Shown here: in pieces, positions 4,083 to 31,667 of the stretch
Layout of the letters: the number at the start of each line of letters is the position of its first letter
Numbering within the stretch: position 1 is the first letter of the stretch
Virus record (IMG/VR): IMGVR_UViG_3300027963_000208
Location: 1 to 32,358 of that record
DNA: 32,358 nucleotides
Source: a virus
Direction: 5' to 3' (one strand)
Notes under the pieces: generated by a model
The model's database searches: none
What the model saw: only the letters and a program-made list of their open reading frames with translations
Told to the model about the DNA's origin: nothing
Program-made: the position numbers and the translations under genes

Positions 4083-4337
4083 TTAATTAATCGAATTAGT
4101 AAAAAACCACACAACACCAGCAAGCACACAACCACTAGCAACAGTCGTAAGAATCATATGAAACATACGACGAGACTCCACACCACCCTGCCACTTAGCC
4201 TCCTCCATCTCCAACTCGGTCACACGCCCATTAGTACGCTTAACCTCCTCATGAACAGAAACCAGCATATCCTCCAAGTGCTGCAACTTAACCATAATAA
4301 CATCTACCTCAGAAGTAGTCACATCATCAACCCCCAT
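4083..4337 (-). CDS. Coiled-coil plus C-terminal membrane-anchor protein, probable lysis accessory (84 aa)
   Basis: Residues about 8-55 form a heptad-like polar helix (VKLQHLEDMLVSVHEEVKRT), followed by a single hydrophobic segment (MILTTVASGCVLAGVVWFF) near the C-terminus. This architecture matches the small XhlA/hemolysin-like proteins often encoded beside phage holins, though I see no decisive motif. The ATG at 4337 overlaps the end of the giant upstream gene by 11 bases. The next gene downstream is the holin, supporting a lysis cassette. Role is inferred from architecture and context. Confidence 0.75.
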   Translation of the reverse strand: MGVDDVTTSEVDVIMVKLQHLEDMLVSVHEEVKRTNGRVTELEMEEAKWQGGVESRRMFHMILTTVASGCVLAGVVWFFTNSIN

Positions 4338-7300
4338 TCATAATACGATCAATATCATCAGCAGTCAACCTGCCCAACTCCGCATTAGACGGATACATAT
4401 CCGCCAACCCCTGCATAATACGCCTAATAATAGCCGGATCAGCATTCTTACCATAAGTAGGCAACAAAACATTCTCAATAAAAAACTTAGCCTGACGATA
4501 TTTAGTCAGAGCGTTAATAGCCTTAGTCTTAGCAGACTCAAAAGCATCTGCCTGACCCGCAACAAGACGACCCGCATCCCGAGCCTGCTGTTGCATAGCC
4601 TTATCCAACTCCGTAGGACCAAGTGAATAAACACGAGAAGGAGAAAACGCATTAAAAATACCAGCCATACTAGTAGGACTATAATTAGTACTCAACTTCT
4701 CCTTAGGAAGTGTCAACTTAGTAGACGTAGGATCCTCAGGATCAGCCAAAAAGTCTTCAACACTATTAATATTTCTTAAAGCATTAAGATCAGCATCCGT
4801 TTTAAACAAGTTAATACCAAGACTAATAGCAGGAAACGCAGCATACATATCCTTATAGTATTGTGCAGCACTCTTATTACGCTCTTCCTCTCGAAGAGGA
4901 TAACCAGTAAGCGGATTAACACCATAACTACGCGAAAACAAACCAGTAATATAAGGGTTAGTACCCGCAGTAATAGGCTGAATACTTCTAAGACTAGGAT
5001 CACCAGTAAGAAACCCTGCAACAGCAGCAATGTTACGCCCAGTAGTAGCAAAAGGATTAACACTCTCAACATTAAGAACATTAACTTTTTCAGGATCAAA
5101 ACCTAAAAAGTTTGCTACATCACCAGTAAACGGAACAGAACCAAGCAACCAGTCTGGCAAACCACCCGCCTCAAGAATCTGCTCATACCCATAATTACCA
5201 AGATTAGCAGTAAGATTAGCAGTAATAGGACGATCCTGAAGAAGCCGTTTAGTAAACAAAGCACTATGCCTAGTCCAAGCATAAAAAGGAAGAAGAAAGT
5301 TACGCGCAAACTTTTCAGAAGGACTAAACCAACGATAATTACCAACAACACTATCAGCCGCATAACGCATCTCACGCAACATAAACTCATTATAATACGG
5401 ACTATTAGGATCAGCAATCATACGCAAAGCAGTATGAAACTTAGTCATCTTATTAATAGCAAGACCCGGAATAGGAACATTAGAAGCCTCAGCAACAACA
5501 TCACTATCCATAAAAGCCCTAAATAATGGTTGACTTAAAGCGCTCTGCTTAAGAATACTAGCCCTTATAGCGCCCTCAAAAGCAAAAGTAATAACATAAC
5601 CAAAACTAGTCACACCACGAGCAAACTTACCACCAATACGAGTAGCCTTATTTTTAAGAAGCGGCCTAACAAACCTACCTACACTAGGAGCACGTTTACT
5701 AAGTTCATTAACAGCCCCAGAAACACTAGCACCCAACTCAGTATTATCTTCCATAAAAATATCGTGATGAAAATCATCAGAAAACACTTCTTTAATAATC
5801 ATAGTATCATCGCCCAATTCGGACAAAGACTGAAGTTGTTCTCGATCTTCACGACTAAGTTTTTGTCCAAGACGATCAGCCTGTTTCAAAGCATTCTTAG
5901 CACCCTTACTAAACATATCAGCCATAACTTGCATTGCCCACTCAGGACGAGCAAGCATCAACATAGTATTAGTACCAAAAACATTCTGTTGAAGAAACTT
6001 AGGATTCATAGAAAGCACAAGCATTTTAAACAAGTTATTAACCAACTGCATTGTTTTAACAGCCAGATTATTAGAACGCCGACTAGCCTCACCAAACTTA
6101 TTATAAATACCACGCGGAATAACCATAATAGTACTATTAGGATCCGACAACCCAAGCGCAGCATAACGATCACCAATATCACTAGCCGCCATATTAGCAA
6201 GATCATTAGGATTCATTAAATCAATAAAATCCTTATCAACATATTTAGACGACAAGTCAGTCTCCCAATCAGCAAGCCTAGCCGTACGATGCTCAGCCAA
6301 CGTAGTACTCATAACATCAAAATAATTCATAGTAACTTTAAACTTCTCAACACCCTGATCCATAATAGACTCAACAAAACCCTTATCAGTCGCATCCATA
6401 CCAGAACGATGCCGATAAGTACTAGCATACGCCTCAGCAGACTCTAACGTATCAAAAATACGTTGAGTAATAAGAGGAACATAAGCATCAGGATTATCCA
6501 AATAATCTTTTACAGTAATAGGAACAGCCTGCTCATTAATAACATCATCATACAAAGTCTCAACACGACGAGCAGTAGCACGAGCACTACCATTAAGTTG
6601 CACATCAAACTGGTAAGAAGCAAGACCAGAACGAATAACCTCATTACGATTAATCTTCAAATCAAAATCCTCATTACCCCGCATATCCCTAGTACTAATC
6701 TTATCAATAAAATCTCTAGCATTAGGAAACATCTTATGCATCTTATTAGCAATAGCAACTTCAATACTAATACGAGCATCAGCAGGCTTATTATACTTTA
6801 ATTTACCTGTACGACTAGTAGCAAAGAATTGTTCTGGAAGATAAAACACATCATCACTAAGCAAATGTTTACGATCAAAACTCATATTAGAATCATCAAA
6901 CAACCCTTGAATCCGCAAAGCGCGAACAGGATAAAAACGAGTAGTAGACGCAACCTTACTTTCAACACGAGCATTAGCAACAGTAACATCCTCAATAACT
7001 CGTTTAGGAACATTAGGAAGATTAATAGGCTTTAAATTAGGATCCATAAACACTATAGGACGACCACCAGACTCTCTAGCAGCCAAATCATTATTTAAAC
7101 GAGCAAGAGCCGCATTAGACCTATCAATAAGAACCTTAACCTCAGGAATACTAGTATCAACAAACTCTCCACGAGCATTAGGAAGATCCTCCATACCAGC
7201 ATCAAGCATATCAGTAAGACGAATATTAGGATTCAAAATAGGGACAGCCCTACTATGCAAAACATCAGAACCCTCCTTACCTAACTCTCTAACCACATCC

Positions 7301-10236
7301 TCCGGCAACAACCTAGCCGCAGTAAGAATAAGAGCATAAGTACGTTGAAAAGCAGCAAGACTACGCGCATCAGCCTCACCAGTAAGAAGCCTATTATTAC
7401 GTTCACTAAGAAGAATCATAGCGTCACGCATACGAGCAACCTTACGTCCTTGTTCAGTACGAGGAACACCTAACTCGTCCACATCTAGCATAGCAGCCAC
7501 AGTAGCACGATAACGAGCCTCAAACTCTGGAGTCATATACCGATCATAATCAATCTCAAGAAGACGCAACTCGTTACCAGCAACCTCAACACCAGAATCT
7601 CTAGCCGCACGAACCTCTTCAAGCCTACGATTAATAGTAGCCGTAAACGCAGCATACCCCTGACTTTCGCCACCAGCAGCATACCAAGCAGCCATCTGCT
7701 CAGCATCATCCAAATCAGAAGCCTGTAACGTCTGCAACTTCTTCTCAACCATAAACTCTCGACTAGCAGCATCAGAAACAATAGGATTACCCTCACGCAA
7801 AGCCTTACCGTAACGATACTGAAAACCAATAAGAGGAAGTTTAGTTATAATGTTACCTGTACCTACTTTTTTCTGAGCCTCTAACCAGAAAGTTTGAGCA
7901 CTACGACTAAGCGGATTACCCGCCATACGCACATAAACCTTATTAGAAGCATTAGCCTGCTGCTCATCTGCAATACGCTGCACAACCTCAGCAACATTAG
8001 AATCACGAATACCATCAGCAGCATTTAAAACAACATAACGAGGCTCAAACAAAGCAGCAGCACGATCAATAGCAGTAGGCACATAAGTACTCTGCGTATT
8101 AATCTTAATAGCCTGCTCTTTAGTATAACCACCAAGCATAAGTTGTTCAATTTTAGAACTATTAGTAGCCGCTAAAATAGCATCAACATTAGGATTAGTA
8201 CCAACCAAAGTCTGGCGTTGCATACGCGCAAACTCTCTAGGAGACAAACCAAGACGACTAGCCTTAGGCAACGCAGTAAGCCTACCAAGTTCACCCGTTT
8301 TACTAGTAACAGCAGCAATCTTACCAAGTTGACCAGCCTTAGCAGCCCAACCAACAGCAGGAACAACAGCCATAAGATCAAGAATAGGCATAAGAGGATC
8401 TTCAAGCGTCGAATTAACAAAACCATCAACACTACCATAACGATACTTATAATCATCAACCATAGCAGTAAGCGCCTCATTAGGATTATCACTTAAAGCA
8501 TACAAACCAGCAGGAGCATTAAGCGTAGCCCTAAGGATACCCTTAGTAAGATTCATACGAATTTGACTCTCAGCAAGCGCTGTATCAGTCCTAAGATTAT
8601 TTCTAATCTCACTAGCAGGAGTAGGAGAAAGCGTACCAGACCCAATAGCACCTAACTTAGCAAGCAAATACTTACTAGGATCATCCCTAAACGCACTAGC
8701 ATCAGCAACCTTAACAGCCTCGGCATTATACTTATCATTACCTAACTCGTTCATATATTCTTGCGCTAAAGCCCTAAGAGGCATAGAAACAGCACCCTCT
8801 TTAAAACCAACAGCACTAACCGCTTGAATAAGACGAACCTTATCCGCATCCGTAACAGTACTCTCACGAATAATAGGAATAGTACTAAGAGAAACCTCAG
8901 AACCACGACCAGAACTAATCACACCAAACAAATTATTATTAATCTCGTTAGGAGTAGTATACACACGCTTATCAAAAAACTCTAAATTAAACTCTGCATT
9001 AGCCTTAGCAGTCTTAGCAGCCTCAACCTGACGTTGTTTATTAGCCTCCGCAATAAGAGGTTTACGGACACGCTCCTCCTCAAGATTACTACTAATTTGA
9101 GCAAAATCTGTACCCTGAATATTATTAATAAAAGTACGCTGAACATCACCATAAGAACTATTAGGACCAAACGAAAACATATAACGCTTTAACTCGTCAA
9201 CCTCAGCCGTATTAGCGCGACCAGACTGCAACTTATTAAATAATGCTACACCCCTATCGCCACCATTCTTTTTAACTTCAGCAGCAATCTTACCACGCCA
9301 CTTCTCATCTTGAACAATAAACTTAGCGTATTTATCACCCATACTCTTAAAATCAAAATTATAATCAACAGTACTAGTCTTACGTTTAGTAACTTTATCA
9401 GGATTTTTATCATCCACCACATAGTACTCGCCCGGAACATCAGTACGCTTAATATTCTTCTCACCAGTACGATCATAATTAAACGCAGTAGAACGAGGAT
9501 TCAAACCATAAATATTCTGATAATACTCTAAACTATCACTAAAATTATAGTTAGGCTTTTTACGATTATAATCAACAATATCAGGGTCTTCCTTAGTATA
9601 AACCCTAACACCACCAGCATCAAACTTAGGCTTAGCCTTCTTAGCCTTATAATTATCACTAAGAAATTGTTGAAGCGCCACAGGACTAGCCACAGTAATA
9701 GTACGCGGAGTATCACTACCCGCAGTCTTAACATAAGCCATCAAACCCTTATTAATCATCTTCTGAGCATCAGCCTGCGTAAGATTAAACGCAGCGCCCT
9801 TAGAATCAATAAACGCTCGAACATCCGCTAAACGAGCAGCCGCACCCGGAACACCCGGTTTAGCAAACGCAAACATATCAAACGAACCAAGATACTTCTC
9901 ACTATCAGGAATAGTATAAGGCAACGCCCTACCGCCCCTATACTGCTGCAAAACATTAGAAACATTAGCACTAATCATAGTCGGATCAATACCCCGAGGA
10001 AAATTCTTCTTATTGGAAAAATAATCCGAAATAATCTTACCACCAAGATAATTATTATACCTAGGTGTCAACATTTGATTATTAGGGGTTCTACGATACT
10101 CAGTAGGCTGAATCCGGCGCGGCTTATATGTCGCGGGTCGAGGCCTATTGGTTGTTCCGCGATTGATCGGCGCGGGGCGAGTACTACTAACCGGAACATT
10201 GTTCGACGGCGCTCGCGGATTAAACACATCAGCCAT
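4327..10236 (-). CDS. Giant virion-type protein, probable internal/ejection protein (1,969 aa)
   Basis: The largest gene, 18% of the window. The N-terminus (about 60 residues) is Pro/Arg-rich and disordered, then a long mostly helical protein follows. A hydrophobic Ala/Gly segment lies near residue 620 (PILDLMAVVPAVGWAAKAG). Around 1415 there is LSMNPKFLQQNVFGTN, and near 1645 LLPFYAWTRHSALFTKRLL, reminiscent of large phage internal proteins with a conserved PFYxWxR-like segment. The end is helical. Size, position between small virion genes and the lysis cassette, and short-tail neighbours suggest a protein ejected with the DNA, analogous to podovirus internal virion proteins. I looked for lytic transglycosylase and single-subunit RNA polymerase motifs and saw none convincing. 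The ATG has GGAGTC a few bases upstream. Confidence 0.85.
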   Translation of the reverse strand: MADVFNPRAPSNNVPVSSTRPAPINRGTTNRPRPATYKPRRIQPTEYRRTPNNQMLTPRYNNYLGGKIISDYFSNKKNFPRGIDPTMISANVSNVLQQYRGGRALPYTIPDSEKYLGSFDMFAFAKPGVPGAAARLADVRAFIDSKGAAFNLTQADAQKMINKGLMAYVKTAGSDTPRTITVASPVALQQFLSDNYKAKKAKPKFDAGGVRVYTKEDPDIVDYNRKKPNYNFSDSLEYYQNIYGLNPRSTAFNYDRTGEKNIKRTDVPGEYYVVDDKNPDKVTKRKTSTVDYNFDFKSMGDKYAKFIVQDEKWRGKIAAEVKKNGGDRGVALFNKLQSGRANTAEVDELKRYMFSFGPNSSYGDVQRTFINNIQGTDFAQISSNLEEERVRKPLIAEANKQRQVEAAKTAKANAEFNLEFFDKRVYTTPNEINNNLFGVISSGRGSEVSLSTIPIIRESTVTDADKVRLIQAVSAVGFKEGAVSMPLRALAQEYMNELGNDKYNAEAVKVADASAFRDDPSKYLLAKLGAIGSGTLSPTPASEIRNNLRTDTALAESQIRMNLTKGILRATLNAPAGLYALSDNPNEALTAMVDDYKYRYGSVDGFVNSTLEDPLMPILDLMAVVPAVGWAAKAGQLGKIAAVTSKTGELGRLTALPKASRLGLSPREFARMQRQTLVGTNPNVDAILAATNSSKIEQLMLGGYTKEQAIKINTQSTYVPTAIDRAAALFEPRYVVLNAADGIRDSNVAEVVQRIADEQQANASNKVYVRMAGNPLSRSAQTFWLEAQKKVGTGNIITKLPLIGFQYRYGKALREGNPIVSDAASREFMVEKKLQTLQASDLDDAEQMAAWYAAGGESQGYAAFTATINRRLEEVRAARDSGVEVAGNELRLLEIDYDRYMTPEFEARYRATVAAMLDVDELGVPRTEQGRKVARMRDAMILLSERNNRLLTGEADARSLAAFQRTYALILTAARLLPEDVVRELGKEGSDVLHSRAVPILNPNIRLTDMLDAGMEDLPNARGEFVDTSIPEVKVLIDRSNAALARLNNDLAARESGGRPIVFMDPNLKPINLPNVPKRVIEDVTVANARVESKVASTTRFYPVRALRIQGLFDDSNMSFDRKHLLSDDVFYLPEQFFATSRTGKLKYNKPADARISIEVAIANKMHKMFPNARDFIDKISTRDMRGNEDFDLKINRNEVIRSGLASYQFDVQLNGSARATARRVETLYDDVINEQAVPITVKDYLDNPDAYVPLITQRIFDTLESAEAYASTYRHRSGMDATDKGFVESIMDQGVEKFKVTMNYFDVMSTTLAEHRTARLADWETDLSSKYVDKDFIDLMNPNDLANMAASDIGDRYAALGLSDPNSTIMVIPRGIYNKFGEASRRSNNLAVKTMQLVNNLFKMLVLSMNPKFLQQNVFGTNTMLMLARPEWAMQVMADMFSKGAKNALKQADRLGQKLSREDREQLQSLSELGDDTMIIKEVFSDDFHHDIFMEDNTELGASVSGAVNELSKRAPSVGRFVRPLLKNKATRIGGKFARGVTSFGYVITFAFEGAIRASILKQSALSQPLFRAFMDSDVVAEASNVPIPGLAINKMTKFHTALRMIADPNSPYYNEFMLREMRYAADSVVGNYRWFSPSEKFARNFLLPFYAWTRHSALFTKRLLQDRPITANLTANLGNYGYEQILEAGGLPDWLLGSVPFTGDVANFLGFDPEKVNVLNVESVNPFATTGRNIAAVAGFLTGDPSLRSIQPITAGTNPYITGLFSRSYGVNPLTGYPLREEERNKSAAQYYKDMYAAFPAISLGINLFKTDADLNALRNINSVEDFLADPEDPTSTKLTLPKEKLSTNYSPTSMAGIFNAFSPSRVYSLGPTELDKAMQQQARDAGRLVAGQADAFESAKTKAINALTKYRQAKFFIENVLLPTYGKNADPAIIRRIMQGLADMYPSNAELGRLTADDIDRIMNGG

Positions 10237-20576: not shown

Positions 20577-20603
20577 TGGGAGAGGGGCAAAGCCCCTCTC
20601 CCA
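20577..20603 (-). terminator. Triloop stem-loop after the capsid gene
   Basis: Perfect 12-bp arms (TGGGAGAGGGGC and its complement) enclose AAA on the plus strand, TTT on the minus strand. It lies nine bases after the capsid stop. On the minus strand it is followed by ATTCTTC rather than a T tract, so it probably acts as a partial terminator or as a 3' stabiliser that raises capsid mRNA over downstream genes. Same loop size and closing pair as the operon terminator at 1641. Confidence 0.75.
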
Positions 20604-20612
20604 AACAATCAC

Positions 20613-21974
20613 TTACACACCAGCATCCGCAGAACCATTAACATTAATATCATTAATGACCACGTTCTTGCTACGATTCGTAGCGCCCATATTCATGTAA
20701 CGAACCATGATAGCCTCATACGCATCATAACCAGCGACCTGACGAAGCGTCTGACCATCCCCATCAAGGAAGTGCCAATCCTGATCCGAAAACACTTTAA
20801 GTGTAGACTCATCAAGAATGTACATCTTACCATACGGAGCATCCAGATCAGCAATGACCGGCATACCATTATACGTCAGCGTACTAAAGCCCGACGCATA
20901 ATCCGTTCCACCCGGAACAACGAACTGCTGATTAGCCTGAAGCAGACGATAAAACTCGCGCTGCACACCAAGCGACGTAATGATTGCACTAGGCATAGCC
21001 CCCTGCTGACGAGAAAGGTTAATAGCCTGTTGCACACGCATGATCGTAAGAGCCTCAGCAGTACCCGGCGTAGCGCCGAACGTACGCTGATTATCCCAAT
21101 ATGTTGCCGAATATGCATCAATCTTACCAAGCGAACCAGACTTACCATTCGCAGTAGCAAGAGTAGCACTAGCAATAGTACCATTAGCCTCAGAAGCCGC
21201 AGCCGGAGTAAACGAGTTTACCACGCGACGAAGCCCATCAATCTCATTCGAACGAGTCGTGTTATTAAAACGATTCAACGATTGAGCAGCACTAACACTA
21301 CCAGCACGAGTAATCGTAACCAGCACAGCCGTCATAGCAACACTAGCACTAGTAACGGTAATAGTCGAGGTTGTGGCAGCGGCAATACTAACAGCCGAAA
21401 TCGTAAACTCGGTAATCGTACCAGCGGTAGCAACACCCGTAGACTGAACAAAACAATTGACCTTCTGACCAACATACAACTGACCCTTCTTCAAAGGCTC
21501 CCAATCCGCAAGCGTAATCGTATGCGTCGTAGCAGTCGTAGCGTCAGGAGTACCCGTAGCAATAACACCGTCACCCGTACCATAAATCTGACGAGCAAGA
21601 TCCTTCGTCAAGTCGGCACGAATGCCGTCCAATTCGCCCTTAAGAACCTGCAAGAACGAACCAGCATCACTTTTAGTCTTAGCCATCGACGGACCCGTAA
21701 CCTGAATTCGACCATACAAGTACTTCAGGTCGTACTCAGCACGAGCATAAGACTGATTACCAGCCTCCGGCAACGCAGCCGACTCAGCAATAGCACCAAT
21801 ACCAGACGAACGCCCAGTATGCAGCGGCACAAACGCCGCCTTACCAACAAGATCCTCCGAACGCGCTTCAATACGCGACAGAAGAAGCACCTCATTATTC
21901 AACTGCTCCTGTACCGGCCCAAGGTAATACTCCTTGAGAATACTATCAACAGTTGTTAAAGTTCCACCAGCCAT
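20613..21974 (-). CDS. Major capsid protein (453 aa)
   Basis: Forms the icosahedral shell. The N-terminus (TVDSILKEYYLGPVQEQLNN), the segment AAFVPLHTGRSSGIGAIAES with the following LYGRIQVTG strand, and the later MPSAIITSLGVQREFYRLLQ and GMPVIADLDAPYGKMYIL segments follow the order of HK97-fold capsid proteins. A Thr/Val-rich beta insert lies at about residues 145-225 (TITLADWEPLKKGQLYVG), probably a surface domain. The ATG has a strong GGAGG. Gene order scaffold, capsid, hairpin, small genes is standard. Confidence 0.9.
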   Translation of the reverse strand: MAGGTLTTVDSILKEYYLGPVQEQLNNEVLLLSRIEARSEDLVGKAAFVPLHTGRSSGIGAIAESAALPEAGNQSYARAEYDLKYLYGRIQVTGPSMAKTKSDAGSFLQVLKGELDGIRADLTKDLARQIYGTGDGVIATGTPDATTATTHTITLADWEPLKKGQLYVGQKVNCFVQSTGVATAGTITEFTISAVSIAAATTSTITVTSASVAMTAVLVTITRAGSVSAAQSLNRFNNTTRSNEIDGLRRVVNSFTPAAASEANGTIASATLATANGKSGSLGKIDAYSATYWDNQRTFGATPGTAEALTIMRVQQAINLSRQQGAMPSAIITSLGVQREFYRLLQANQQFVVPGGTDYASGFSTLTYNGMPVIADLDAPYGKMYILDESTLKVFSDQDWHFLDGDGQTLRQVAGYDAYEAIMVRYMNMGATNRSKNVVINDINVNGSADAGV

Positions 21975-22817: not shown

Positions 22818-23348
22818 TTACCCCTTTAATACTAAGAGTCCAGATGATTCTGGTTGCTCCTCTACCTCCACATCAATAATCTCATCAGCACGATTCTCCG
22901 CCGCACCAACAAGACCATCAACAAAGCCGCCCATAAGTTCCTTCATATCTTCACGAGAAGGAAGTATCTGAACGGTTTCAGTACGTTTAGTAGCCAGCCC
23001 AGTAGCAAGACGAATCTTATCATCCATAATACCTACTACCGTAGCAATAGCACTTAATTGTCTAACTTCAGCCTGAGGAATCAACTCCTCCAACTTATCC
23101 ATCGCATTCTGACGAACACGATTAGCATGATGAACAAACTCGTATATCTGAGCAGGAAGTTCATCTAACACCGCATCAGGCGGTCCATCCTCATTCCAAC
23201 CTTTAACCCAATACCTCAAAGTATTAGTTGGAATACCAGACTCGCGTGACGTTTTACGAACATTCTTATCATTAGAAACCCAAAGAACATACGCAGCCGC
23301 ACGATCCTGATCAGACCATTGGGTATTACTTTTGGAAGCCAACGCCAC
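22818..23348 (-). CDS. HTH protein, possible small terminase subunit (176 aa)
   Basis: Residues about 10-50 contain a helix-turn-helix-like segment (AAYVLWVSNDKNVRKTSRES then GIPTNTLRYWVKGW), the style of terminase small subunits and related DNA-binding domains. A helical middle (EFVHHANRVRQNAMDKLEEL) and acidic C-terminal tail (EIIDVEVEEQPESS) complete the small-terminase layout. GTG at 23348 overlaps the portal gene end by 23 bases; its SD is poor, so coupling is likely. Position between portal and scaffold, away from the large subunit, is unusual for TerS, so a regulatory role is an alternative. Confidence 0.65.
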   Translation of the reverse strand: MALASKSNTQWSDQDRAAAYVLWVSNDKNVRKTSRESGIPTNTLRYWVKGWNEDGPPDAVLDELPAQIYEFVHHANRVRQNAMDKLEELIPQAEVRQLSAIATVVGIMDDKIRLATGLATKRTETVQILPSREDMKELMGGFVDGLVGAAENRADEIIDVEVEEQPESSGLLVLKG

Positions 23349-25662
23349 TCATTTCTTTCTGGTACTGCTGCTGCATATTCTGCTCATGAACCGCAGACTT
23401 CTCAGCCAACTTATTAGCCAAATCCTGCTGCAAACTAGCAATATCCTCACCACCAGCAGACTCAGCATTAGGCTTATCCTTATTATCAATAACAACCGTA
23501 TCAATCGGCGGCTCCAACAACTCTTGTGGAGTAACACCCTTAAGGCCAGACTGAGTAAGAATCTTAGAACCAGTCGTAGGACCAACAGCGCCACGCAATT
23601 GAAGACTAACCTTAGCAGGCTGACCCTGAACATTAGCAGACTCCTGCATAGCAGTCATAGTAAACTGGTAATGCTTCTGGAATCGCTCCTGAATCTCCAA
23701 AGGAAGATCTTCAAACTCTGGCGACTTCATATACAAAGCGTGAGTCTCAAGATGCGAAGCATGATTCTCAAACGGCAACGGAGTCAAACCAGCATCCATA
23801 ACCTGCATAAGAGCCTCAGGAGTAACCGCAGCAGGACGACCCGTATTAGGATCAACCTGAGGATTATCAATCTGCATCATCAACTCTTGCTGAGCCTTCA
23901 TAGCAGCAGGCTTATTAATAGGCTCACCCACAATAAGACGATCATTCTCCCGCATAGCCTGCTCCTCATCCGCCTCAAACTGTGCCTGAAGCGTCTTAAA
24001 ATCAGCCATATCAAGATACTTATACGCCTTAGTAGGACTAATAATACCCATCTGAAGCATCTGCATAACACGCGCCTGCTTACCCGCACGAGTACGAGGC
24101 AAACCAGAACCAGTCTCAACCTTAACCTGAACACCAGCAATAATATCAGCAGACTCAAAACGACTAACCTTAGCCTTAGAACCAGCACCAGCAAGCATAA
24201 TAAGACGAGGCTCATTATAATAACGCTGAGCCAACTCAAGCATCATATTACCAGCACGCTCCAAACCCTTCTCCATCATAAGAATCTGAGGAGCCAAACG
24301 ATCCGTAGCCGCCTCCTGAAGAAGATCAATAGCAACACCAGCCTCAACATTAGGAGGCACAGCACCATCACTAATCTCATTCAAACCAAACGTATCACGC
24401 AAACGCTGACCAAGATCCTGAAGATGCTGAAACACATAAGAAGGAAGACTTTGAATAGGAATAGCCTCAGGCACCTTACCAGCCACAGGATTATACTCAA
24501 AAATAGCGCCCGGCTCATCAGTCATACGCTGACGCAAAGAACCAACCGGAGCAAGCATCTGGGGCTTCAACGTAAGATTCTTATACTCAATCATCTGACT
24601 AAGGGTACGATTAAGTTCCTTCTGCAACGGAATAGCCTGCTCAACAACACTAGTATCATACAACTGGCCCGGAATACGCATACCCGGAAACTTAACAAGA
24701 GGAAGTTTCTTAAACGGATAAGGCCAAGGACCATCATACAAAATAATATTAGGTGACTTAGTAAACGCAACATACCGACCCTCAGGAAACTCTGGACCCG
24801 GCAAAAAATAACCAACAAAAACAGTACGAACATTCTGCTTAGTCTTACCACTCGTAGTACCAAACATGCCCGGAAGAGTCTCATCAGGATAACGATTAAT
24901 AGCATTAGGCTTCAAACGCACATCATAACGCGCATAAATCTCATCACTACTCATTGGATGCACACAAAACGCATACTTACAATCTTCAAAAACCTGAGCA
25001 GAATCATCCAAAAGAACATCAAAAGGAGCCATAACATCAACCTTAATCTCCCCCTCAAATACTTCCTTCTCAAACTCTCCCGCATCCAAGCCCATCTTAC
25101 TAAGACGATCCTTAAAAAGATGCTCAATAATAGGATTAACAATAGGCTCACCATCAGGATTAAGCATCAACTTAACACTAGATCCAACCTTATCATCCCA
25201 ACTAATCTTCCAAAAACCATTACCACAAATAATAGCCCATAACATTGCCTCTTCACGCTTGCTCCCCAGACTAAACGTATCCCACCAATAATCCAACAAA
25301 GACTCAGCAACCTCAGTCGCCTTAATAGCCTCATAATCGGCCTGAGCAGGAGTAGCAAAAAACGTAGGCTTAGTCTTAGTCAAACGAGCAAGCAAACCAT
25401 TAGAATTAGGAGCAATCTGATTAGCAACAAGACGAACACGATAACGAGGCTTATCACCATCATCAGTAGGCAAAGACTCCATACGCCTAGACTTCCGATT
25501 ATAAAAAACGTACTGCTTACCCTTATAAAACGAAAGATTCAACTTCCATTGGCGCTCCATAATCTCACGCTCAGACTGCAACTCGTCCACACGTTTAACA
25601 AGCGCATCAGCGGAGGCAAACCCAGCCGGAACATCCTCATTACTATAACTTTTATCTTCCAC
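23326..25662 (-). CDS. Portal protein (778 aa)
   Basis: Dodecameric channel at the head vertex for DNA entry and exit. Features: ERQWKLNLSFYKGKQYVFYN near residue 40, RVRLVANQIAPNSNGLLARL following, a central KKLPLVKFPGMRIPGQLY with VVEQAIPLQKELNRTLSQMI, and a helical ALAQ-type crown region with Gln/Ala-rich C-terminus. This matches the large P22/podovirus-type portals, including the K-E-L-N-R helix after the wing. GTG at 25662 has GGGGG upstream. Length is at the high end for portals. Confidence 0.9.
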   Translation of the reverse strand: MEDKSYSNEDVPAGFASADALVKRVDELQSEREIMERQWKLNLSFYKGKQYVFYNRKSRRMESLPTDDGDKPRYRVRLVANQIAPNSNGLLARLTKTKPTFFATPAQADYEAIKATEVAESLLDYWWDTFSLGSKREEAMLWAIICGNGFWKISWDDKVGSSVKLMLNPDGEPIVNPIIEHLFKDRLSKMGLDAGEFEKEVFEGEIKVDVMAPFDVLLDDSAQVFEDCKYAFCVHPMSSDEIYARYDVRLKPNAINRYPDETLPGMFGTTSGKTKQNVRTVFVGYFLPGPEFPEGRYVAFTKSPNIILYDGPWPYPFKKLPLVKFPGMRIPGQLYDTSVVEQAIPLQKELNRTLSQMIEYKNLTLKPQMLAPVGSLRQRMTDEPGAIFEYNPVAGKVPEAIPIQSLPSYVFQHLQDLGQRLRDTFGLNEISDGAVPPNVEAGVAIDLLQEAATDRLAPQILMMEKGLERAGNMMLELAQRYYNEPRLIMLAGAGSKAKVSRFESADIIAGVQVKVETGSGLPRTRAGKQARVMQMLQMGIISPTKAYKYLDMADFKTLQAQFEADEEQAMRENDRLIVGEPINKPAAMKAQQELMMQIDNPQVDPNTGRPAAVTPEALMQVMDAGLTPLPFENHASHLETHALYMKSPEFEDLPLEIQERFQKHYQFTMTAMQESANVQGQPAKVSLQLRGAVGPTTGSKILTQSGLKGVTPQELLEPPIDTVVIDNKDKPNAESAGGEDIASLQQDLANKLAEKSAVHEQNMQQQYQKEMSGVGFQK

Positions 25663-25865: not shown

Positions 25866-26145
25866 CCGGAGTTTCTCCTCCTCCAATACTAGCATCTTCT
25901 CCAACCACAACTTCTGTGTCGCTAGAATCTCTTGCATCACTTCTAGTAAGAGTGTATCCTGCCGACTCCGCCAACCAAACAATAGTAGACTCCTTAACAA
26001 ATCGTGTAAGCGTGTCCCCCATATAAGGAACAGGCACATTAGCAACATTAGTATCTATAACACTATCACCCGGAAAGATACGCTCCCCCGTAATAGCATC
26101 AGCACCACTACTATAAATACTAAACTCCATAAGATTATTCACCAC
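25825..26145 (-). CDS. Unknown small protein after the terminase (106 aa)
   Basis: GTG at 26145 overlaps the terminase end by seven bases, with GGGGAG close upstream. The N-terminal 65 residues look structured (EFSIYSSGADAITGERIFPG, then FVKESTIVWLAESAGYTL). The C-terminal 40 are Gly/Asp/Glu/Val-rich and probably disordered. No family recognised. Both this and the next small gene are packed between terminase and portal, suggesting packaging or head-vertex accessory roles. Confidence 0.7.
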   Translation of the reverse strand: MVNNLMEFSIYSSGADAITGERIFPGDSVIDTNVANVPVPYMGDTLTRFVKESTIVWLAESAGYTLTRSDARDSSDTEVVVGEDASIGGGETPVGDSPVRGRKAVK

Positions 26146-27611
26146 ATACTCCCCATAAACTCGTCAATGTAACGATCTTCTTTCTTACCATCACCCGGAC
26201 GATCATTAACAACCCAATCCGGCAAACCACTAGGGTGAGCCAAAGGCTTATCAAAAAACGATTCAGCCAACAACGCACCCGCAGTCCTCAAAGCAATCTC
26301 CACACTATCCAAACAGTCATCCCTAGGATTAGAAATACTAGAATCATAATTAATCCACTCATCAATAAAATCCTTTTGATCCTTCTTAATACGAATTTTA
26401 CCAATTTTAAAAAGAGGACTCATAGCCATAATACGCTCATACTTCTTACCCTTAGCAAAAATAGGAACAATAGGAGGCATACTAGGCAAACGCTCCGCCT
26501 GCTGCACAAGAGCCGCCTGAAATGCATTAGACTCAATCCCAATAATATCTGGAGCCCAACGCAAATAATACTCCTCAATCTTATCTAACTGATCAGCAAA
26601 AGGAATCTTAGCAGCAACTTGATCTAACAAGAAAACCTGATTATTTTTAGCAACACCAACAACACTAAGAACAAACCTATCACCACGACCACTCATACTC
26701 ACAGCAGGGTCAACACCAATATACTTACGAAGTTTCTCAAGCGTACCATCCTCATTACGAGGAAGATCATCAGCAGTATAATACTGCAACCAATCGCCAG
26801 CAAGATCACGACCAGCCATACTATCAAACGCAGCCATATACTCCTGAGCAAACAAAAGAGGATGATACCGTTGCTTAGTATACTCCCACTCTTTCTTAGG
26901 AAAATAAGGATTATCAATACTACGATACTCAACCCGGCCTTGGGCCGGGTCTTTCATAGCGTCCTTGTTCCAGAATTCTTCGTAAAACCAGTTTTTGCCG
27001 TCTGGTGTGGTAGTTGTTATTAGTAATCCTTCTTTGTCTGAGAGGGCTGGGCGCATTACCTGCCACGGTTCCTCACTACGAATGAATGCGGCCTCATCCA
27101 TCCATAGGATGTCTAGTCCAGCGCCTCGTAGCGACTGGGGATCATCAGACGACTTGAATTCTATTAGACTACCATTGTTAAACTCAAAGGTCATTGCTCC
27201 ACGATTCTCTTTCACATCTTTACCGATCTCTAGACCGGCTTCCGTAATAACTTTACGCATAGTTAAGAGTGCTGGACGCAATACCTTATAATCTTTACTT
27301 GTTGCCCATACCCAGAGGGGTGAGTTGTCTGTTTTTCCTCGCGCATCCATGTGGAATTGTTCGGGATATAGACAATAAAATAGTACTTCCCATGCAGCAG
27401 AAAGAGTTTTTCCTCCACGACGACCGGCAACTAGGTGTCGGAATCGTGTTAGATGCTTATTATCTGTGTTTGCGTGGAATAAGGCTTGATAATAGTGGGG
27501 TGCATAGCCTTTAGATAGGAACCAACCCATTTTTTCTGGATATGTGAGTAGAATTTCTTCTAATTCTTTACTCTTGATGTTTACGCCATCTTTAAACGAG
27601 TAGTTTGGCAC
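26139..27611 (-). CDS. terL: Terminase large subunit (490 aa)
   Basis: ATP-driven motor and nuclease that packages and cuts phage DNA. Walker A AGRRGGKT at residues 62-69, Walker B LDILWMDE at 166-173 and the coupling motif TTTTPDG at 199-205 define the ATPase. The RNase H-like nuclease has YIGVDPAVS with Asp301, IGIESN with Glu360 and RDDCLDS near 430-436, its acidic catalytic residues. GTG at 27611 follows AGGAG that overlaps the stop of the mini-protein upstream. Codon composition changes abruptly at residue ~222, between the two domains, exactly at a GC-rich palindrome (see separate entry). Confidence 0.96.
   Translation of the reverse strand: MPNYSFKDGVNIKSKELEEILLTYPEKMGWFLSKGYAPHYYQALFHANTDNKHLTRFRHLVAGRRGGKTLSAAWEVLFYCLYPEQFHMDARGKTDNSPLWVWATSKDYKVLRPALLTMRKVITEAGLEIGKDVKENRGAMTFEFNNGSLIEFKSSDDPQSLRGAGLDILWMDEAAFIRSEEPWQVMRPALSDKEGLLITTTTPDGKNWFYEEFWNKDAMKDPAQGRVEYRSIDNPYFPKKEWEYTKQRYHPLLFAQEYMAAFDSMAGRDLAGDWLQYYTADDLPRNEDGTLEKLRKYIGVDPAVSMSGRGDRFVLSVVGVAKNNQVFLLDQVAAKIPFADQLDKIEEYYLRWAPDIIGIESNAFQAALVQQAERLPSMPPIVPIFAKGKKYERIMAMSPLFKIGKIRIKKDQKDFIDEWINYDSSISNPRDDCLDSVEIALRTAGALLAESFFDKPLAHPSGLPDWVVNDRPGDGKKEDRYIDEFMGSMW
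26932..26950. repeat. GC-rich triloop palindrome inside terL
   Basis: Arms ACCCGGCC and GGCCGGGT (8 bp) enclose TTG (plus strand). It encodes residues 221-227 of the terminase (DPAQGRV). The all-G/C core is conspicuous in an A/T-rich genome, and it marks the point where terL codon style changes. Confidence 0.9.
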
Positions 27612-28795: not shown

Positions 28796-29704
28796 TTAAG
28801 CGCTCCATTTACCTACACTAGCAAAAACCGTAAACACAGTATTAGCAGTCTTAAGGATATTAAAAGTATAAATATCACTAGATGAAGCATTACCACTAGT
28901 AGGAGTAGTGCTATTTCCCCATTTAGGAGTAACACTAGCACCATCAATAGTCATAGCGGTTTGATAATATGCCGTAGTACCATTTGTATTAATAAGAACA
29001 ATACTAATAGCCTGATTAATAGCAAGCAAAGAGTTGAGTGTAGTAGACGCATCTCCACGCACATTAAGAGTCCAGTTACCAGTAGCATTAGCAGTAGCAT
29101 ACAAAACGCCCTGAGTAAGAACATCAAGATTAACAGTACCCGTCATAGTACCACGAGTAGCAAACGTTTCAAAGGGAGCAAGAAGAGCCTCATTAGACAC
29201 CGTACCAGCAGCATCACGAAGAACAATAGTACTAGCCGTATTAGCCGTAGTAGCAGTTGTAGCACTATTAGAAACCTTACCAGAAGTAGCAATAGTAGCA
29301 AGTTTAGTATCAACAATAGCAGCCGCACTATTAATATCAGCATCAACAATAGTATCATTAGCAATCTTAGCCGACGTAACAGCACTAGCAGCAATCTTAC
29401 CCTCAGTCACAGCCAAATCATTAATCTTCGCCGTAGTAACAGCCAAATCAACCAAACTCACAGTATCAATAGCCTTAACCCACGCTGTACCATTATACAA
29501 AAACAACGTATCAACATCAGACTGATACACCATAACGCCCTCAACAGCACTAATAGCAGACTTAGCAGTATTATCCGCAACAACCACATGACCAAACTTT
29601 ATCGAATCAAAATTATCCCGCACATAAGTATTCCAATCAGAAGCCAACAAACTCGAAACACCAGCAGTCTGACTAGGCACACCATCCAAATCCGCATACG
29701 ACAA
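28796..29704 (-). CDS. Tail fibre, first gene of the late operon (302 aa)
   Basis: The N-terminus (SYADLDGVPSQTAGVSSLLA then SDWNTYVRDNFDSIKFG) is a typical phage fibre head. A parameter-like strand pair ends YNGTAWVKA. Residues about 90-140 contain AVTTAKINDLAV, EGKIAASAVTSAKI and DADINSAAAI, the AxxxxKI repeat of trimeric fibres. The C-terminal domain (WTLNVRGDASTTLNSLLA) is beta-rich and probably globular. I prefer TTG at 29704, eight bases after GGGGG; TTG at 29719 is possible but has no SD. Confidence 0.82.
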   Translation of the reverse strand: MSYADLDGVPSQTAGVSSLLASDWNTYVRDNFDSIKFGHVVVADNTAKSAISAVEGVMVYQSDVDTLFLYNGTAWVKAIDTVSLVDLAVTTAKINDLAVTEGKIAASAVTSAKIANDTIVDADINSAAAIVDTKLATIATSGKVSNSATTATTANTASTIVLRDAAGTVSNEALLAPFETFATRGTMTGTVNLDVLTQGVLYATANATGNWTLNVRGDASTTLNSLLAINQAISIVLINTNGTTAYYQTAMTIDGASVTPKWGNSTTPTSGNASSSDIYTFNILKTANTVFTVFASVGKWSA

Positions 29705-29899
29705 CCAAACCACCCCCAAACATAAGAATAATAAAAAAACACCCCACTACAATACTATACGAAACTTATCCAACAAAAGTAACAACAAAAACTAAAATTA
29801 ACACAACCTTAACATAACATAACCATAATAAGCCAAACTCAAAAAACACCAAAAATATATGTAGCATAATATATAGTGTGTGTGAGATTGATAACGGGG
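29705..29899 (-). promoter_or_regulatory. Leader and presumed promoter region of the late operon
   Basis: About 180 bases upstream of the first late gene are A/C-rich on the plus strand with no supportable reading frame. A TATAGT element on the minus strand near 29752-29757 could be a -10, but no convincing -35 lies at 16-18 bases, and a phage-specific promoter may be used instead. The plus-strand A/C bias ends near 29880 where the palindromes start, so this is where transcription direction changes. Confidence 0.35.
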
Positions 29900-30334
29900 A
29901 TACTACTTTGTAGTATTATATACAGTTATGGTGGGTATAATCGTAGATTATAGTAAGAGCCTAGTATGCTTATACAACTCTGTTGTATTAGGGGATGCCT
30001 ATAACCTACAGTTATAGGATGATGACTAGTACTACCTTCGGTAGTAAGATATACTTATACCCTTATACTAAGAGTAACTACTCTTAGTATATATATATAT
30101 AGAGTCTTCGACTCTATAAGAATTCTTTATGGTACCAATAATGATAGTAATATCAATTGATATTACTATTGTTTCTACTACCTTTGGTAGTAGTAGCCTT
30201 ATACTACGGAGTAGTATAAGTTTTGTTTATGTTGGTTTATTGGTTCACTACGAAGTAGTGTTTGGTTAGTATCGAAGATACTAGTTTTTGTCTCAACGTA
30301 GTTGAGATACGCATGTTATCCATCTTCGATGGAT
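29900..30334. repeat. Array of 14 different triloop palindromes in the divergent control region
   Basis: Perfect inverted repeats at 29900-29916 (loop TTT), 29936-29952 (GTA), 29972-29988 (TCT), 29998-30018 (CTACA, a C·A mismatch around TAC), 30030-30046 (TTC), 30064-30091 (13-bp arms, AC centre), 30098-30118 (TTC), 30144-30169 (26-base perfect palindrome), 30175-30193 (TTT), 30198-30220 (GGA), 30246-30260 (GAA), 30267-30283 (GAA), 30291-30307 (GTA) and 30318-30334 (TTC). Arms are 6-13 bp; 232 of 435 bases are paired. All eleven true triloops are closed by C-G. Stem sequences differ, though ACTAC next to the loop recurs in five. No reading frame is supportable here. A TA-dinucleotide run lies at 30088-30101. 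Confidence 0.93.
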
Positions 30335-30352
30335 TGGGCTGAGATTTATATA

Positions 30353-30400
30353 CTCTCTAAATAAATATCTGAACGAAGTGAAGATATTTATTATAGAGAG
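30353..30400 (+). promoter_or_regulatory. Long hairpin, copy 1, before the zinc-finger early gene
   Basis: Lower stem CTCTCTA/TAGAGAG (7 bp), one unpaired A on the right side, 11-bp upper stem (AATAAATATCT with its complement), then apex GAACGAAGTGA, which can form tandem G·A pairs, two base pairs and a GAA triloop. It is preceded by TATATA and followed by ATAAAGGGGA, the SD of the gene starting at 30418. Possible roles: mRNA 5' stabiliser, RNase III-type processing site, or protein-binding cruciform. Confidence 0.88.
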
Positions 30401-30417
30401 ATAAAGGGGACGGAAAA

Positions 30418-30834
30418 TTGCTGAATCGCAGTATCAACGAAGTTGAGGGAGCATTCGAAGAATGGTTGGAGTCTTTGTCTCCGGAGGAGACTGCCGAGTT
30501 CTTCGAAATGGTTGCTCGTGATCTTGATAGCATCGAAGATGCTAAGGGTGTTCAGATCGTCGAAGACGATGAATGTGTTGCTCCGAAGGAGGAGATTGTG
30601 GAACCGAAGGTTGCTGTGAAGAAGACGAAGTGCCGCTGCTGTGGCTTTGCCAAGAAGCATTACCGAGTGAATGCCGAAGGCATTTGCAAAGTTTGCTACG
30701 TTGCGTTGGCTACGTCGGATAGTAACTCTGTTACTATCGTTGGTCGGCAGGGCAAGAAGGGTCACAACACTGTAAGTGTTGTAGTCGGTGGGACTCGTGT
30801 GAAAGTCTCTCGTAAGGTACGGCTTGACTCGTAG
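30418..30834 (+). CDS. Early zinc-finger-like protein carrying DNA triloop palindromes (138 aa)
   Basis: TTG start, seven bases after AAGGGGA. Residues 1-60 are acidic and helical (EWLESLSPEETAEFFEMVAR). A Cys cluster at 72, 74, 75, 90 and 93 (KCRCCGFAKK, GICKVC) looks like a treble-clef-like or zinc-ribbon finger. The C-terminus is basic (TRVKVSRKVRLDS), suited to nucleic acid binding. Eleven short palindromes run through the gene, most with the loop as a whole codon. As the first rightward gene after the control region it may be a regulator, but no family is recognised. Confidence 0.8.
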   Translation: MLNRSINEVEGAFEEWLESLSPEETAEFFEMVARDLDSIEDAKGVQIVEDDECVAPKEEIVEPKVAVKKTKCRCCGFAKKHYRVNAEGICKVCYVALATSDSNSVTIVGRQGKKGHNTVSVVVGGTRVKVSRKVRLDS

Positions 30835-31405: not shown

Positions 31406-31612
31406 ATGAGCGAAGATATGACGTATATTATTGAGTGGAATGATGATGTGCTTAGCAATGCTGATTATTGGGCATTGGAATCCTACGAATATGTAGCACA
31501 AGAGGCTGGATTCGTAGAGGATCTCATGGATTATGTGCAAGGCATGGGTTACGATTGGAGTGATGTAGCGCATGTGCAAGAAGTCAATTCGGCAACGGTA
31601 TATACTCTCTAA
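31406..31612 (+). CDS. Small acidic early protein (68 aa)
   Basis: Reads MSEDMTYIIEWNDDVLSNAD and continues acidic and aromatic to VYTL. GAAAGGG lies eight bases before the ATG. Its last codons and TAA stop form the left base of the second long hairpin (31605-31652), so gene end and regulatory stem overlap. No family recognised. It shares style, not clear homology, with the 66-residue protein upstream. Confidence 0.72.
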   Translation: MSEDMTYIIEWNDDVLSNADYWALESYEYVAQEAGFVEDLMDYVQGMGYDWSDVAHVQEVNSATVYTL

Positions 31613-31652
31613 TAATTACTCTGAACGAAGTGAAGAGTAATTATATAGAGAG
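31605..31652 (+). promoter_or_regulatory. Long hairpin, copy 2, before the ArdC-like gene
   Basis: Same 48-base design as the copy at 30353: identical TATATA prefix, CTCTCTA/TAGAGAG base stem, single bulged A at 31645, identical apex GAACGAAGTGA and identical ATAAAGGGGA suffix. The 11-bp upper stem is different (ATAATTACTCT), with six of eleven positions changed and all pairs kept. This covariation between two loci shows the structure, not the sequence, is selected. Confidence 0.9.
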
Positions 31653-31667
31653 ATAAAGGGGAACAAA

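Follow-up and report, generated by a model that had tools for sequence, protein, structure and literature searches.

A dense array of short palindromes occupies the divergent junction between the early and late genes of an uncultured phage and continues through its first early gene. Typically, these palindromes form hairpins with three-base loops (“triloops”) closed by a C-G pair. The array is a real, strongly conserved feature, and the constraint on it probably acts at the level of DNA. As far as we found, no such array has been described for phages.

Source phage and gene order

The window, i.e., the whole 32,358-nt stretch analyzed here, is a 32-kb fragment of the genome of a tailed, podovirus-like, uncultured phage that is known solely as an IMG/VR record. 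The late genes run leftward and include the first late gene (28796-29719) and those for the terminase (26139-27611), the portal (23326-25662), the major capsid protein (20613-21974), and a giant protein of 1969 aa (4327-10236). The early genes run rightward, starting at 30418, and a ribonucleotide reductase is encoded at 25-1572. By comparison of capsid and portal, the distant isolated relatives are the podoviruses Jasmine and Adat, whose host is Arthrobacter, Shocker, whose host is Microbacterium, and DS1, whose host is Cellulosimicrobium. The 1969-aa protein has no match in Pfam, PHROGs, or PDB sequences; the annotations of Shocker, Jasmine, and DS1 each include a protein of similar size in a similar position.

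The divergent junction is AT-rich, with 31% GC upstream of the first early gene. This gene, referred to here as “gene 1” (30418-30834, plus strand), encodes a protein of 138 aa with two CxxC pairs and a basic C-terminus, and the predicted structure of the protein has low confidence (pLDDT 65, pTM 0.39).

The hairpin array

A preliminary description of the window had placed 14 inverted repeats between the early and late operons, 11 of them C-G-closed triloops. Both the location, at the divergent early/late junction, and the count proved exact: the intergenic array (29900-30334, no strand assigned) comprises 14 inverted repeats, and all 11 of those with three-base loops (arms of 6 or more) are C-G closed. 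As described, the loops of these triloops on the purine strand are AAA, GTA, AGA, GAA, and GGA only. With loops in brackets, the triloops are ATACTAC[TTT]GTAGTAT (29900-29916), TATAATC[GTA]GATTATA (29936-29952), ATACAAC[TCT]GTTGTAT (29972-29988), TACTACC[TTC]GGTAGTA (30030-30046), TATAGAGTC[TTC]GACTCTATA (30098-30118), CTACTACC[TTT]GGTAGTAG (30175-30193), CTTATACTAC[GGA]GTAGTATAAG (30198-30220), CACTAC[GAA]GTAGTG (30246-30260), TAGTATC[GAA]GATACTA (30267-30283), TCTCAAC[GTA]GTTGAGA (30291-30307), and ATCCATC[TTC]GATGGAT (30318-30334). The other three inverted repeats are CCTATAAC[CTACA]GTTATAGG, with a 5-nt loop (29998-30018); a pair of 13-bp arms, TATACTAAGAGTA/TACTCTTAGTATA, with 2 nt between them (30064-30091); and the palindrome ATAGTAATATCAATTGATATTACTAT (30144-30169).

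The preliminary description confined the array to the intergenic region, and here it needs correction: the array also covers gene 1, which holds eight further triloops at 30434-30782, seven of them C-G closed. These are TCAAC[GAA]GTTGA (30434-30446), CATTC[GAA]GAATG (30452-30464), GTCTCC[GGA]GGAGAC (30477-30491), TAGCATC[GAA]GATGCTA (30528-30544), ATCGTC[GAA]GACGAT (30556-30570), AATGCC[GAA]GGCATT (30670-30684), the 9-bp GATAGTAAC[TCT]GTTACTATC (30718-30738), and the 8-bp, T-A-closed ACAACACT[GTA]AGTGTTGT (30764-30782). In the rest of the window, triloops are scattered and rarely have the closing pair and loop class of the array.

The preliminary description had called for a comparison with shuffled sequence, which the array survived. 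When the 650 nt preceding gene 1 are dinucleotide-shuffled 200 times, 0.03 C-G-closed triloops are expected, with a maximum of 1, against the 11 seen; 0.47 are expected when any closing pair is allowed. Within gene 1, the seven C-G-closed triloops compare with a mean of 0.54 and at most 3 in 1,000 synonymous-codon shuffles. Fold energies calculated for DNA have z-scores of −10.3 (plus strand) and −9.7 (minus strand) for 29900-30334, −5.5 and −6.0 on the two strands of gene 1, and −1.1 for the next two genes.

The stems are not copies of one another, since a repeat search of the array listed no family of direct repeats. REP and BIME elements are clusters of palindromes in bacteria that lie outside genes and whose units are copies of one sequence. 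The array is likewise a palindrome cluster, but it has no direct-repeat family and enters a gene; it was rejected as a REP/BIME element since it does not consist of copies of a conserved palindromic unit. A cluster of intrinsic terminators (a GC-rich stem followed by a T run) was also rejected. Three terminator-like sites occur in 29700-30450, against 0.4 expected; the remaining hairpins have no T run. Elsewhere in the window are two 12-bp GC-rich triloop hairpins that are likely terminators, one beginning AAGGGGAGCGGC[TTT] at a convergent gene end (1641-1667) and one beginning TGGGAGAGGGGC[AAA] just downstream of the major capsid gene (20577-20603).

Conservation and extent among relatives

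A search with a profile of the 138-aa protein retrieved 25 viral loci, and in 25 of 25 of these contigs an array lies upstream of the gene-1 homologue at the same junction. The array therefore passes the second check put forward in the preliminary description, its presence in relatives at the syntenic place; together with the lack of a direct-repeat family, this upholds the earlier view of a conserved architecture rather than a copied repeat. In most relatives, the coding part of gene 1 also has more triloops than synonymous-codon shuffles.

The extent of the array was measured with “strict” hairpins, i.e., those with a C-G closing pair and an R-N-A loop. When 17 loci are pooled, almost all strict hairpins lie between −570 and about +500 of the gene start. 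Each 100-nt bin between −600 and +600 contains them at 0.6 to 15 per kb, and outside these limits there are four in total within −2.4 to +3 kb. In G006, a complete circular relative, nine of the ten strict hairpins are inside the array segment or just beyond it. In most relatives the hairpins end near the gene-1 stop codon. Most relatives also have the final triloop of the array centered on that codon, e.g., GGAGTC[GTA]GACTCC and CTTGACTC[GTA]GAGTCAAG (L007 3421-3439; L111, L113, and L114).

Three relatives (G005, G020, and G027) have terminases 82-85% identical to that of the window, yet have neither a gene-1 homologue nor an array at the junction. Relatives with the array, such as G006, and these three without it have terminases about equally similar to that of the window. 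Since the array and gene 1 are absent together, they appear to move as a module, and the segment looks like one that is exchanged between phages. At the divergent junction of G005, where the array is absent, there are three copies of GTTAGGCNNCCCTAAC tetraloop palindromes (L075 2680-2789, corresponding to G005 42680-42789). Among annotated isolates, none was found with the array or gene 1, and among GTDB genomes none was confirmed.

DNA-level or RNA-level structure

The leader region, pooled over relatives, has 114 distinct triloops, of which 86 are C-G closed and 3 are G-C closed; among background triloops elsewhere in the same genomes, 18 are C-G closed and 15 G-C closed. Of the C-G-closed leader loops, 81/86 are R-N-A on one strand, with ends G..A or A..A, and these are split between the plus (43) and minus (38) strands. 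A separation by orientation seen in the window, minus on the left and plus on the right, fails in relatives (P = 0.64). Loops in the coding part are mostly GAA on the plus strand because of glutamate codons. Loop lengths other than 3-4 are nearly absent from the array, and none of 210 distinct hairpins has a GNRA or UNCG loop. The minus strand exceeds shuffled sequence in fold energy no less than the plus (transcript) strand does, no one-sided signal of G-U bias towards one strand was seen in the leader, and the array has no Rfam match at the gathering score, with weak E-value matches only.

According to NMR work by Chou and Reid, a sheared purine pair reportedly closes AAA loops in DNA. The same kind of closure is reported for GNA triplets in the DNA of Streptomyces telomeres (PMC7205883) and of phage N4 (PMC4496689). 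In RNA hairpins, by contrast, loops of the GNRA and UNCG types are strongly enriched, and they have one orientation (PMC8794818). A DNA-level constraint is favored because the sheared R-N-A loops are strand-symmetric, GNRA and UNCG loops are absent, and fold energy has no strand bias; we regard such a constraint as probable. The same features, with the loop inversions described below, sustain the preliminary reading of the array as a DNA-structure element.

Changes in stems and loops

Among relatives, hairpin positions are kept while stem sequences change. Alignment of orthologous hairpins shows 589 changed stem pairs, of which 492 are double Watson-Crick changes that still pair; the 589 were counted over comparisons of related sequences, such that independent events are fewer. 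The 13-bp arms at 30064-30091 have a counterpart in two relatives (L109 and L107) with an identical 12-bp stem. Different codons can also be used to rebuild a hairpin at a given site of the protein, as where the window has ACAACACT[GTA]AGTGTTGT and G006 has CCGAAAC[TCC]GTTTCGG.

Between near-identical relatives, loops are often inverted as a unit (GAA to TTC, ATA to TAT), and 29 of 40 differences in three-base loops are exact inversions. Thus, the loop at 29972-29988 is inverted to AGA in L008, that at 30246-30260 is inverted in L011, and that at 30318-30334 is GAA in L007. Other loops differ as TTT in L008 (30030-30046), and as TAC (30267-30283) and TTC (30291-30307) in L007. Loop inversion combined with perfect arms is a footprint of template switching between the arms (PMC8604942, PMC8794818), and, judging from these sequence comparisons, loop flips and perfect stems in the array may arise by template switching during replication.

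Genome ends as the favored explanation

The divergent junction is also where the isolated relatives Jasmine, Adat, Casserole, and Shocker have a direct terminal repeat, which in each case includes the first early gene. These repeats are 1551 bp (Adat), 1558 bp (Casserole), and 484 bp (Shocker) in size, and that of Jasmine is 1330 bp (PMC5513430). The hairpin zone of the window matches them in place and size, and the terminal repeats of the Arthrobacter and Microbacterium podoviruses share with the array segment the genome layout, the divergent junction, and the contained first early gene (PMC5513430). Based on this synteny, we infer that the array segment coincides with the direct terminal repeat of the phage. 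There are also differences: the repeats of Jasmine, Adat, and Shocker have no triloop array, and the first early gene of the Jasmine group is Lsr2-like. Terminal repeats thus do not need an array, given its absence both from these repeats and from G005, G020, and G027. Three relatives assemble as closed circles, which fits a terminal repeat or circular permutation alike. Contig ends were rejected as proof of a physical end since they do not cluster at one homologous position.

In linear phages such as T7, terminal repeats become single-stranded on one strand per end during replication and end processing. Our favored explanation, which is tentative and has somewhat less than even probability, is that the array is a DNA-structure element of ~1 kb that spans the divergent control region and gene 1, and folds the single-stranded DNA of genome ends. 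Under the same tentative explanation, stem sequence would be free provided that it pairs, and both strands would be selected to fold. On each strand there would be many hairpins folding independently, with C-G-closed sheared R-N-A triloops as their caps. Single-stranded DNA could arise at genome ends as 3' tails left by replication, or in the course of repeat duplication, packaging, or entry; hairpins there might shield the single strand from nucleases or present it to a structure-specific protein, in the manner of the Streptomyces telomere palindromes, and the putative zinc-ribbon protein of gene 1 is a candidate hairpin binder. A repeat foldable on both strands would explain why the array is strand-symmetric, why it takes in coding sequence, and why its limits are sharp. 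A stronger form, in which the ~1-kb terminal segment, coding sequence included, is selected on both strands as single-stranded hairpins that serve as telomere-like armor for a terminally redundant genome, is more doubtful. Also against the favored explanation, the end of the hairpins near the gene-1 stop codon could point to a transcript as well, and the process that flips loops, template switching, might alone account for some of the perfect pairing.

The closest likeness is to the telomere palindromes of Streptomyces, which are also a tight series of different stems with sheared 3-nt (GNA) loops, have compensatory changes, and barely align in sequence between clades (PMC7205883). The array differs in length (~1 kb versus about 160-180 nt), in having A-N-A as well as G-N-A loops on both strands, and in running through a protein-coding gene; its location at an end is suggested by synteny with the terminal repeats of isolated relatives. 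The terminal proteins Tap and Tpg, part of the Streptomyces system of terminal single-strand hairpins, are not among the PHROGs matches of the early proteins of G006, the one relative scanned. If the favored explanation is true, DNA rather than RNA structure would be selected over a kilobase and strongly enough to shape codons, which would be unusual; phage terminal repeats would be linked to the hairpin telomeres of linear Streptomyces replicons; the relatives would offer a naturally made set of compensating mutants with which to learn what DNA hairpins form in cells; and template switching would be shown to maintain a functional DNA element.

Alternative explanations

The array could instead work as cruciforms in double-stranded DNA, with negative supercoils between the divergent promoters extruding hairpins that absorb torsion or gate a promoter or origin. 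The strand symmetry of the loops and the AT-rich junction (31% GC upstream of the gene) agree with this idea, and in N4 C-G-closed triloops of the same class extrude at physiological supercoiling (PMC4496689). However, it leaves unexplained why the first early gene alone has hairpins throughout its coding sequence, and promoter-like matches are no more frequent than in shuffled sequence. We consider cruciforms unlikely, with perhaps a quarter of the weight.

Structured RNA is less likely still. Here, the hairpins would belong to a long 5' leader and the first gene of the early transcript, where they would control its stability, processing, or translation. The extent of the array matches leader plus first gene, and a separate, orientation-locked hairpin sits at the leader end (see below). 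Departures from pairing in stems are somewhat more often G-T (30) than A-C (18), and several relatives have stem bulges at conserved places. Set against this, GNRA and UNCG, which are enriched in RNA hairpins (PMC8794818), are missing from the 210 hairpins, loop orientation is random, the fold-energy excess is not greater on the transcript strand, and there is no Rfam family.

The palindromes might also be a mutational by-product, made and perfected by template switching in a locally single-stranded region with little selection. While the exact loop inversions (29/40) and perfect arms carry the signature of this process (PMC8604942, PMC8794818), it does not predict the C-G closing pair, the R-N-A loops, loop lengths limited almost entirely to 3-4, the sharp boundaries of the array, or the upkeep of hairpins through synonymous codons in a conserved protein; we consider it improbable.

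Lastly, a battery of promoters for an N4-type virion RNA polymerase, akin to the multi-promoter reading in the preliminary description, has very little to recommend it beyond a shared form (short stem, three-base loop, C-G closing pair; PMC4496689): it fits poorly with a loop orientation that is random (43:38) and invertible, with dissimilar stems that have no constant flank and no conserved −17 to +1 sequence, and with the lack of an RNA polymerase match for the 1969-aa protein (PHROGs, Pfam, and PDB sequences; the PF00940 search had no positive control) or among the early proteins tested of G006. The N4 promoters are likewise DNA hairpins at early genes with a sheared G:A pair (PMC4496689), but they number 3 against about 18 triloops in the window, and the array, in addition, extends inside a gene.

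A separate leader hairpin

Just before the RBS of gene 1 is an orientation-locked hairpin with the apex TGAACGAAGTGAA (30353-30400, plus strand). It is separate from the array and more RNA-like. Its form is CTCTCTA, a variable covarying stem, TGAACGWAGTGAA, the other side of the stem, and TAGAGAG, shortly before the RBS of early genes. At the apex, tandem G.A pairs carry a C(GAA)G triloop. The hairpin has no Rfam match and is possibly an RNA processing or regulatory element. The window has a second copy at 31599-31662, each relative has 2-3 copies, and the hairpin also occurs in otherwise different viral contigs of 49-59 kb (L163 4050, L167 6470, and L173).
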